Of a DNA stretch of 64,000 nucleotides, positions 10,803 through 64,000 are shown in pieces. The position numbers were made by a program, and so were the translations under genes. Positions within the stretch are counted from its first letter, which is position 1; every line of letters starts with the position of its first letter. Below the pieces are notes generated by a model, which saw only the letters and a program-made list of their open reading frames with translations, was not told the DNA's origin and did no database searches. This DNA comes from Agelas oroides (taxonomy: Eukaryota > Porifera > Demospongiae > Agelasida > Agelasidae), in contig OX422186.1 in the NCBI GenBank assembly GCA_949130485.1, forward strand, positions 5,303,792-5,367,791, in the 5' to 3' direction.

Positions 10803-46503
<35,701 letters not shown>

Positions 46504-58830: not shown

Positions 58831-59337
58831 CTTTAACTGGTAAGCTGTTCCTCACTTTCCTGTGTGTGTAGTACACCTGCGGCTTATTTTGACAGTTGAG
58901 TTTACATTTGTTGCAAAGCTTGTCTTGCCATATCCCAGTCTCCATGGCCGCCATATACAGGGTAGAGAAAGTCCTGAAACACTTGATGTCACCAATTTGA
59001 ACAGCTAAATCCGACTTCCTGAAATCAGCCAAAGGGGGTAATGTATTTGACTTGCTCAGATATCTGAAGTTGGATAAGTGACTTCCTACTGTACTTTTAA
59101 AACTTGGTGTTATCTCAAGTACGAGTGTAAAGTTTAGAAACCAGGTGTAAAATGGGCTCTGCCACTAGTTGTACGGTTGTACCTTTGCATATTTGATTGG
59201 GGCGAGCCTGAGCGAGCCCCACACTAGCGTGACTGCATTGCGCACGCATGTGTGTATGCTTGTACGCTTGGACCGACCACTTACCGGAAATTTTAAATGA
59301 GCGCGTTTCAATTTTAATACTAGGTAGATGCAGGGCA

Positions 59338-60891
59338 TCATGGGGCGAGCCTGAGCTGGTTCGTATGATGTAATTTAGATTGTCGCTCTTGCACAGACTG
59401 TCTGACTGTCTCCTCTTCAGTCAACCGCTGAGTAGTGTTGGGCACAAACGATCCTGAGAGATGGGCATCATAGGGGTCCACGTCTTCGACAGATGGTGCT
59501 TCACTGTCATCAGCAACAGAGTCGAGTGTCACAGACCTCAGGCCAGTCAAATATCCATCCTCTGGTAGTAGAGCAAGGGCATCACTATTGATCTGAACAC
59601 TGCGATAATACTGGTTGTTGGCGAGTAACCACTGAAGTGCAGCAAGCACTACAGACCTCCTGACACGAAAGTCATGATGGGAGTCAGCAGCTCCTTGCTT
59701 CCTCACAACAATGATGTCAAGTTCAGTGGGCAATCGTGGCAGAGGATTGACGAAGGAGGCCACGTCTTGTGGCAGGTTGATGACGTGTCCATTGTATGCG
59801 TACTGCCCATGAGGTAGTCGGTACAGTGGCATGATTGGTAGCACACCAGAAATCAACATTTCTTCCACTTGTGTTAATCCCTGTAAGAAGGAACACGTAT
59901 CAGTTACATAGGATGACATAACAGTAATATTATTACCAACCTGCAGTTCAGATAGTAAGAAGGAACACATATCAGTTACATAGGATGACATAACAGCAAT
60001 ATTATTACCAACCTGCAGTTCAGATGGTAAGAAGGAACACATATCAGTTACATAGGATGACATAACAGTAATATTATTACCAACCTGCAGTTCAGATGGT
60101 ATAGGGCCAGGATCCATGTTGTTGGCAGAGGAGTATAACTTCGGTATATGCTTGTCCCGGCTACAGCGCAGACACTCAGCAGACCCCAAGTGAAGCTGAA
60201 GACCAGGAAAACTCTCCAAACAGGTGGTACATGTCGACAGATCTAGCGTAGCGAAGTGTGCATGAAACTTATGCATCTTAGCTCGAATGGAATGCTGTTC
60301 AAACAGTGGGAGCTGTGACTGCACAAGCTGTTGATCTCTGTGTCTCTGTCTGTCACACTGTAACCTGACCTCTCTCTCCTCGGCAGTGTCAGCTGCCAAT
60401 CTCTCATGCTGGTAAGTACTCATATGCTGCAGCCTGGCCTCTCTTTCCTCGGGAGTCTCAGCTGCCAATCTCTCATGCTGGTAAGTATTCATATGCTGCA
60501 GCCTGGCCTCTCTTTCCTCGGGAGTCTCAGCTGCCAGCCTGTCCCTCATATACTGCAGCCTGGCCTCCCTTTCGTCGGGAGTCTCAGCTGCCAGCCTGTC
60601 CCTTCTCAGCTGCAGCCTGGCCTCTCTCTCCTCGGTAGTCTCAGCATCCAGTCTGTACCATCTTTGCTGCAGTCGTGCCTCCCTATCTTCGGTAGCTTGT
60701 GAAGCCCGCCTAGCCCTGTCCCTCATTCTCCGTTTTCTCAACCTTTCTTCCCTTTGCTCCGCTGTCTCGGAAGCACGGCGGGCCCTCTCTCGTTCTCTCC
60801 GACTCCGCAACCTTTTCTCTCTCTTCTCTACTGATTCTGGGTTAGTATCCATACTCGCGAACAACCAAAAATCCACTTGGAAGGCGTGCAA
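59338..60891 (-). CDS. N-terminal part of Helitron-type replicase (STPR-like repeats, DUF6570-like region)
   Basis: The likely start is the ATG at 60852 (MDTNPESVEKREKRL); a longer open start is at 60891. Residues 10-190 hold Arg/Glu-rich repeats of 18-28 residues (AETPEEREARLQ, RRASETAEQREERL) like score-and-three peptide repeats. Next come a CxxC...C region (CTTCLESFPGLQLHLGSAEC LRC) and NNMDPGPIPSELQ. An in-frame 204-nt intron (60084-59881) follows, then GLTQVEEMLISGVLPIMPLY, HVINLPQDVASFVNPLPRLP and DFRVRRSVVLAALQWLLANN, which I know as the DUF6570-type region before the Helitron HUH nuclease. The ORF stops at 59338 before nuclease and helicase, so it is truncated. Confidence 0.75.
   Translation of the reverse strand: MHAFQVDFWLFASMDTNPESVEKREKRLRSRRERERARRASETAEQREERLRKRRMRDRARRASQATEDREARLQQRWYRLDAETTEEREARLQLRRDRLAAETPDEREARLQYMRDRLAAETPEEREARLQHMNTYQHERLAAETPEEREARLQHMSTYQHERLAADTAEEREVRLQCDRQRHRDQQLVQSQLPLFEQHSIRAKMHKFHAHFATLDLSTCTTCLESFPGLQLHLGSAECLRCSRDKHIPKLYSSANNMDPGPIPSELQVGNNITVMSSYVTDMCSFLPSELQVGNNIAVMSSYVTDMCSFLLSELQVGNNITVMSSYVTDTCSFLQGLTQVEEMLISGVLPIMPLYRLPHGQYAYNGHVINLPQDVASFVNPLPRLPTELDIIVVRKQGAADSHHDFRVRRSVVLAALQWLLANNQYYRSVQINSDALALLPEDGYLTGLRSVTLDSVADDSEAPSVEDVDPYDAHLSGSFVPNTTQRLTEEETVRQSVQERQSKLHHTNQLRLAP
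59881..60084 (-). repeat. 72-bp tandem repeat forming a stop-free intron in the Helitron ORF
   Basis: Two full 72-bp units (60084-60013, 60012-59941) and a 60-bp unit (59940-59881). On the coding strand each unit starts GTTGGTAATAATATTAC right after CTGCAG, and the last ends TTCCTTCTTACAG. Removing all 204 nt joins PSELQ to GLTQVEEML, the continuity known in the family. The insert is a multiple of three without stops, so retention would also be translatable. Confidence 0.8.
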
Positions 60892-61059
60892 ATATTAAAG
60901 TTCAACTATAGGTGCAATCATTATCTATGGTGCAATACCAAATCACGTTAAATTAGAGTGGAATTAGAATTTACGGAAAGACGTACGTACGTCCATATAT
61001 AGAGAGAAAATCTCAATACGACTCACCAATGTGGGGCTCGCTCAGGCTCGCCCCAATTA

Positions 61060-62059: not shown

Positions 62060-62306
62060 GGTGTGTTGTCCACACTACACCCAGTCCATTGTCCACACTA
62101 TATCCAGTGTGATGTGCACACTATACCCAGTGTGGTGTGCACACTGGTATCCAGTGTGGTGTGCACACTATACCCAGTGTGTTGTGCACACTATGCAAGG
62201 TGTGTTCAGCACACTGGCTTTCGTGGTGTGTTATGCACACTCCTTTAAGTGTGCGTATAGAGACATCCATAGCACACCTTATTTGGTGTGTTGTGCACAC
62301 CTTAGT
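62060..62306. repeat. Minisatellite with GTGTGNTGTGCACACT units
   Basis: About eleven 20-24-bp units such as GTGTGTTGTGCACACTATAC, each with a palindromic GTGTGCACAC-type core. Open frames across it are artefacts. Confidence 0.88.
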
Positions 62307-63710: not shown

Positions 63711-63764
63711 GAAAGTGCTTGAAGTCCCCCCTCCCCCTCCACCCTCCCCTCCTCCCCTGTGTTC

Positions 63765-64000
63765 ATGTGATGATCGGAAAGGGTACTCCCCTGAAGACCA
63801 GTGTTTTTGAAACCCGTAGTCATGTGATGATCAGAAAGGGTACTCCCCTGAGAACAGTGTTATTAACCTGTAGTTATGCAATGATCGGAAAGGGTAGCTA
63901 CTCCCCTGAAGACCAGTGTGTTTGAAACCCATAGTCATGTCACTCATGTGATGATCGCAACGGTACTCCAGTGTGTTTGAAACCCATAGTCATGTCACTC
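63765..64000. repeat. 55-70-bp tandem repeat running off the window
   Basis: Four units of CATGTGATGATCGGAAAGGG ... ACTCCCCTGAAGACCAGTGT, truncated by the window edge. A single related unit (GATGATCAGACTGGGAACTC CCCTGATGACC) is at about 46032. Confidence 0.85.

Follow-up and report, generated by a model that had tools for sequence, protein, structure and literature searches.

A tandem array spanning a predicted exon-intron boundary in a Helitron2/Helentron-like transposon of the sponge Agelas oroides

The window, i.e. the whole 64,000-nucleotide stretch of the Agelas oroides genome analysed here, carries a short transposon on its minus strand, in which a predicted gene is interrupted by an array of three similar units. 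The features are as follows.

59320..61059, minus strand: internally deleted, non-autonomous Helitron2/Helentron-like element, 1,740 bp, with ends common to close copies in other flanks
61040..61054, minus strand: 5' subterminal inverted repeat GGGGCGAGCCTGAGC, the exact reverse complement of 59342-59356
59342..59356, minus strand: 3' subterminal inverted repeat, pairing with 61040-61054
59327..59339, minus strand: 3' hairpin GATGC-CCT-GCATC (DNA fold), followed by the terminal TACCTAG
60085..60852, minus strand: exon 1, from a predicted ATG start (MDTNPESVEK...) to PSELQ, 768 nt
60364..60672, minus strand: tandem repeats of exon 1, STPR domain, units of 57 and 69 nt (TRF; Pfam PF21107, E 4.5e-21)
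59881..60084, minus strand: predicted intron with the three-unit array (from sequence, TRF and a position common to diverged members)
60028..60084, minus strand: unit 1, 57 nt, first donor GTTGGT and intron body (copy comparison)
59956..60027, minus strand: unit 2, 72 nt, with exon-end copy CCATCTGAACTGCAG at 60013-60027 and donor GTTGGT at 60007-60012
59881..59955, minus strand: unit 3, 75 nt, with exon-end copy CTATCTGAACTGCAG at 59941-59955, donor GTTGGT at 59935-59940 and the terminal TTCTTACAG
59338..59880, minus strand: exon 2 (GLTQVEEML..., DUF6570), running into the 3' end of the element, with its stop at 59338-59340

The ends of the element, 61059 and 59320, were set by comparison with 20 close copies, taken as 9-kb loci. 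They show the features by which Helitron2/Helentron ends are defined in the relevant part of PMC4067079, subterminal inverted repeats (here exact, 15 bp) and a 3' palindrome (here a hairpin with a 5-bp stem), and the DNA fold of the 20 nt at the 3' end has an energy of -3.3 kcal/mol (z -4.2). At the 5' start, 17 of the 20 listed copies (all except L013, L016 and L023) have TAATTG, TTATTG or TTGTTG, and the 3' end reads CTAG/T, the slash marking the junction, in the nine listed copies that show that end; insertion within TT, as in Helitron2/Helentron elements, is possible on these ends. Pfam finds DUF6570 and STPR domains in the open frame of the window copy. Sequence beyond its deletion point is present in eight copies (L010, L011, L013-L015, L021, L027 and L028), and among the long copies Helitron_like_N is recognized in L015 and L027 and a PIF1 helicase in L027, with stops between the L027 pieces. 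The family resembles the Helitron2/Helentron elements, as described in that part of PMC4067079, in having inverted repeats just inside its ends, a hairpin at the 3' end and a terminal CTAG, and probably also in the Helitron_like_N and PIF1 domains of its long copies. Judged from these sequence features, the window copy is an internally deleted derivative of a rolling-circle family of the Helitron2/Helentron type, which may be of either subtype; a C-terminal apurinic (AP) endonuclease is what marks Helentrons in the strict sense.

Some further observations concern the element and its surroundings. In L018, L019 and L022, T(A/T)ATTGGG, the end of another adjoining element, stands no more than a few bases after the CTAG, which suggests that these are head-to-tail tandem elements. 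L036 is a short derivative in which an internal deletion fuses the second array unit to the 3' end of the element, so that its deletion point lies inside the intron array. The STPR array of exon 1 is a second, coding minisatellite within the element, and exon 1 ranges from 579 to 837 nt among the copies. Elsewhere in the window, several reverse-transcriptase fragments at 27592-43200 are probably retrotransposon remains; they include an RVT_1 match beside a weak GIY-YIG match below the cut-off (27592-28764) and a PHD with an endonuclease piece (36857-38155). A fragment of a Secretin-family 7-transmembrane receptor, which points to an animal host, lies at 10806-11564 on the minus strand, and two minisatellites outside the element lie at 62061-62215 and 63763-63940 (47/23-bp and 57-bp units).

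The insert of the window copy is 204 nt long (59881-60084, minus strand), runs from GTTGGT to TTCTTACAG between the PSELQ and GLTQVEEML codons, and is partitioned into 57 + 72 + 75 nt. TRF reports the array at 59883-60101 with period 72, 3.0 copies, 97% matches and a score of 417, which is far beyond chance. A preliminary description of this DNA had seen three 72-bp units splitting the PSELQ and GLTQVEEML segments, a donor-like GTTGGT after CAG in multiple copies, and the exon end and most of the intron inside the repeat; the sequence and TRF agree with it in each respect. CTGCAG precedes each of the donors, whose first bases are at 60084, 60012 and 59940. Two extra copies of the exon end, CCATCTGAACTGCAG and CTATCTGAACTGCAG, are directly followed by GTTGGT, and the sole acceptor TTCTTACAG closes the array. 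The exon-intron boundary thus lies inside the tandem unit, each 72-bp unit carrying 15 bp of exon end with its donor. In the young subfamily the unit combines 14-15 bp from the end of exon 1 with 57-58 bp from the start of a 60-bp intron. The duplication joint, TTCTTAC/CATCTG, shows a 3-bp TAC microhomology common to both parent sites, i.e. ...CTATAC/CATCTG in the exon and ...TTCTTAC/AG at the intron end. By its structure the array is a minisatellite of the mirage type across a predicted exon-intron boundary.

The insert was measured in 36 of 38 sequences, the remaining two (L036 and L041) having no right flank, and 30 of the 36 belong to one close subfamily. The number of units in these 30 is unstable: one unit occurs in one copy (60 nt), two in 13 (109-134 nt), three in nine (185-208 nt) and four in seven (262-280 nt). 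This is the kind of length series that had been proposed as a check (0, 60, 132 and 204 nt), with the value 0 found only in more distant families. Since the insert has one to four units across 30 close copies, the array is both young and labile. The unit core has 78 matches in the genome, every one of them inside the 31 places of the subfamily, at a threshold of up to 2 mismatches with which a diverged source could be missed, and a control with the reversed pattern gave 0. We rejected on this basis the derivation of the unit from another genomic repeat.

The four-unit copies differ in which unit was multiplied: one kind occurs twice in L017 and L018, another in L019, L020 and L023, and L021 and L022 have yet other unit orders. 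The window copy and L009, with three units, form one supported clade (98/94) with the four-unit copies L017 and L018. The tree as drawn, with 29 copies and L023 left out, requires 11 changes of unit number; the shuffled mean is 13.5 and a value as low occurs in 15 of 200 shufflings. The supported branches by themselves force just 2-3 changes per unit class, with many open forks. The single-unit copy is nested among two-unit copies (88/86, midpoint root), a place compatible both with one unit as the ancestral state and with a contraction. The substitution rates per site are 0.0039 and 0.0078 for the exon flanks, as against 0.0093 for the last unit. L023 was dropped from all of these; the left-flank rate also excludes L016, L030 and L033, and the last-unit rate excludes L015, L016, L034 and L037, which have indels there, and so covers 25 of the 30 copies. 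No codon-position pattern proving selection was found among the exon substitutions of the close copies. The GTTGGT of the first donor is intact in 30/30 copies and that of the internal donors in 47/52, a non-significant difference (p 0.15). CTGCAG/GTTGGT is likewise found at 47 of the 52 internal junctions; two junctions are deleted and one has lost its donor GT. The acceptor AG is lost in one copy, L021, and the first unit measures 55 rather than 57 nt in 15 of the 30.

More distant relatives show what else may stand at the same junction. At exactly this codon junction six diverged loci carry inserts, 80-331 nt long, that start with GTTNG and end with AG (112 nt in L039 and L040, 331 in L042, 80 in L043 and L044, 276 in L045). 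Three more inserts were found in L046 (229 nt), L051 (87 nt) and L053 (114 nt), the latter two with in-frame stops and with donors that differ from GTTNG. These nine two-ended inserts represent six distinct sequences, since L039/L040 and L043/L044 are near-identical and L042/L045 are related. In all nine the matches to the 60-nt unit are no longer than 8 nt and TRF detects nothing repeated in tandem over the exon edge; a 32-bp repeat in two copies lies inside the intron of L053. Seven additional loci show the acceptor side only and one (L041) the donor side only. In six loci, L056-L061, the insert is absent, the sequence reading ...TTGCAA/GGCCTGACG... or similar. The pattern of a spliceosomal intron, i.e. 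GT...AG at one exact junction and relatives lacking the insert, is seen here, with nine diverged loci that have an insert and six that have none, and the insert position behaves, as far as these sequences indicate, as a phase-0 intron. The exon-2 protein tree (29 rows, with seven of the 30 close copies taken in and L041 left out) implies one change of intron state. Its support is weak (35/34), so gain and loss of the intron are indistinguishable and repeated gains at this junction would be compatible with it as well. Because nine diverged loci hold inserts there with no detectable relation to the 60-nt unit, free of the boundary repeat, the position of the junction looks older than the repeat.

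Two other origins of the insert have to be weighed against an intron that was lengthened. In the window copy the insert is in frame and without stops inside an open frame of 518 codons (59338-60894), which could mean that it is a translated protein repeat of 24 residues per unit with incidental splice-like sequences; exon 1 of the same protein does contain a coding repeat array, and six of the 30 inserts (the window, L009, L017, L026, L030 and L038) are both stop-free and divisible by three. The remaining 24 are off frame or contain a stop. The freedom from stops and the divisibility by three, stressed at the outset, thus hold for the window copy and fail as a trait of the family, and the idea that spliced, partly spliced and retained forms would all be readable is contradicted by the same 24 copies. 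Seven of the 30 inserts are stop-free in frame; the length modulo 3 is 0 in 8, 1 in 15 and 2 in 7, and we rejected any meaning in the divisibility, 8 of 30 being no different from one third. The 429 nt of flanking exon are open in 20 of 30 copies when the insert is spliced out and in 2 of 30 unspliced (the window and L038); of the 28 closed in the unspliced form, four (L009, L017, L026 and L030) fail only by stops in the exon. Exon 1 is open in nine of 21 copies, and in five of these nine the reading frame changes from one side of the insert to the other, exon 2 being then open for 558 codons in L015, 210 in L021, 72 in L025, 254 in L027 and 252 in L028. In the other 12 of the 21 exon 1 is not open. 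In 10 of the 21 its length is no multiple of three, versus 15 of 21 for the inserts, a non-significant difference (p 0.21), which indicates that broken frames are no special property of the insert. Many copies are decayed, and the relatives, rather than the frames, provide the stronger argument for an intron. They hold other inserts at the junction, some with stops, or none, and we looked in them for a translated repeat conserved as protein, which had been named as evidence against an intron, and found none. We rejected the translated repeat on the frames and the diverged relatives together and consider it extremely improbable.

The second origin, raised as an option in the preliminary description, is that the intron arose when an exon segment bearing AGGT was duplicated in tandem (a Rogers-type gain). 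CAG/GT at every junction is the geometry of that model, and the acceptors of some relatives resemble the exon end, e.g. the last 15 nt of the L042 intron differ from it at 4 positions, a likeness that the splice-site consensus alone may explain. The unit core, however, has no match elsewhere in the genome with up to 2 mismatches, and hence none in any exon, and the diverged loci share the position with other inserts, without a repeat at the exon edge. The position appears older than the repeat; we rejected a repeat-born intron and consider it very unlikely. The other suggestion made at the outset, an intron caught during tandem expansion in a Helitron-type gene, is the one that these sequences support.

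Our analysis suggests that the insert is very probably a spliceosomal intron in a gene of a rolling-circle transposon, whose exon end and donor have been multiplied by tandem expansion. With its intron borders and phase 0 it separates an N-terminal STPR exon from a DUF6570 exon, which in long copies also bears the Helitron_like_N and PIF1 helicase domains. An existing intron of 60 bp would have been lengthened by tandem copying of the exon end and the intron body, joined at TAC. We infer that the first donor is spliced to the only TTCTTACAG acceptor, by which the whole array would be removed at any length. The expansion would be nearly neutral for the protein because such splicing gives the same mRNA at any number of units, and drift in the length of the array would be almost unconstrained. 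If an internal donor alone were used, one or more units would enter the message; the first unit has 55 nt in 15 of 30 copies, and there this would shift the frame.

Each extra unit would bring a donor, a possible branch site, a pyrimidine run and CTGCAG as a possible acceptor. The possible branch site is CTGAT, which the units carry together with TTCCTTCTT; it and the pyrimidine run are candidates by consensus motifs. Where introns are short, the array could also be removed one unit at a time, through CAG/GT nodes and with the same final mRNA, because CTGCAG/GTTGGT could serve as acceptor and then as donor. Such removal could even be the main splicing route, with the extra units as tandem zero-length exons rather than passive filler. 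The 47 of 52 preserved internal junctions and the branch-like CTGAT with TTCCTTCTT fit this; on the other side, the young age of the copies by itself would preserve junctions, and two are deleted and one donor GT is gone. Lancelet mirages, moreover, are reported without disturbance of regular splicing in the relevant passages of PMC3087553 and PMC3902484. We regard it as possible, though rather unlikely, that this is the main route. That the array represents transposon-multiplied recursive-splicing nodes (zero-length exons, CAG/GT), each unit being a short intron removed stepwise, is more tentative still. If it were so, the intron could grow at little cost for the protein, and spare donors and acceptors would be at hand when the outer sites mutate, e.g. 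in L021 without its terminal AG.

Arrays of this kind are known from lancelets. The passages of PMC3087553 and PMC3902484 concerned describe mirages in Adh3, BflGb6, BflGb9, TnC and PGBD5 as minisatellite-like duplications spanning an exon-intron boundary, with units of 10-72 bp in Adh3, haplotypes of 6 and 3 units in BflGb6, and undisturbed splicing. The sponge array, compared with these accounts, shares the boundary-spanning repeat, a similar unit size, multiplied splice signals and a varying unit number; unlike the lancelet cases, which involve host genes or one domesticated transposase, it sits in about 30 dispersed copies of a young transposon. In potato RdRp, a case of intron gain by the portion of PMC4974935 on that gene, the splice signals come from a tandem duplication that spans an intron/exon boundary, whereas here an existing intron was probably lengthened with no new intron position or exon. 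Variable tandem repeats at human exon-intron boundaries, where a change of repeat number alters the intron, are presented in the accessible part of PMC2812944 for recent paralogs with transcript support and with no transposon series; ours is a transposon series read from sequence. Lipomyces stwintrons have more than one copy of the donor within a single intervening sequence, whose removal may take one step or several, and the portion of PMC7138796 in question proposes donor duplications of 4-7 nt, in contrast to the 72-bp units described here, which include the exon end and the intron body. Among the matches listed from the open-licence literature, a limited basis of titles and abstract openings, we found no report of such an array in a Helitron. 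In structure the array is of the mirage kind already known from lancelets, and a young transposon family is its unusual carrier.

Duplications at exon-intron edges have been proposed as a source of new introns, in the sections of PMC3087553 and PMC4974935 on this subject. One sponge genome holds 30 close copies of a gene with one to four units at the same junction, a series that would bear on the tolerance of introns for repeated splice sites. Should the element be expressed, these copies would constitute a natural dose series for splice choice, recursive splicing and array turnover.
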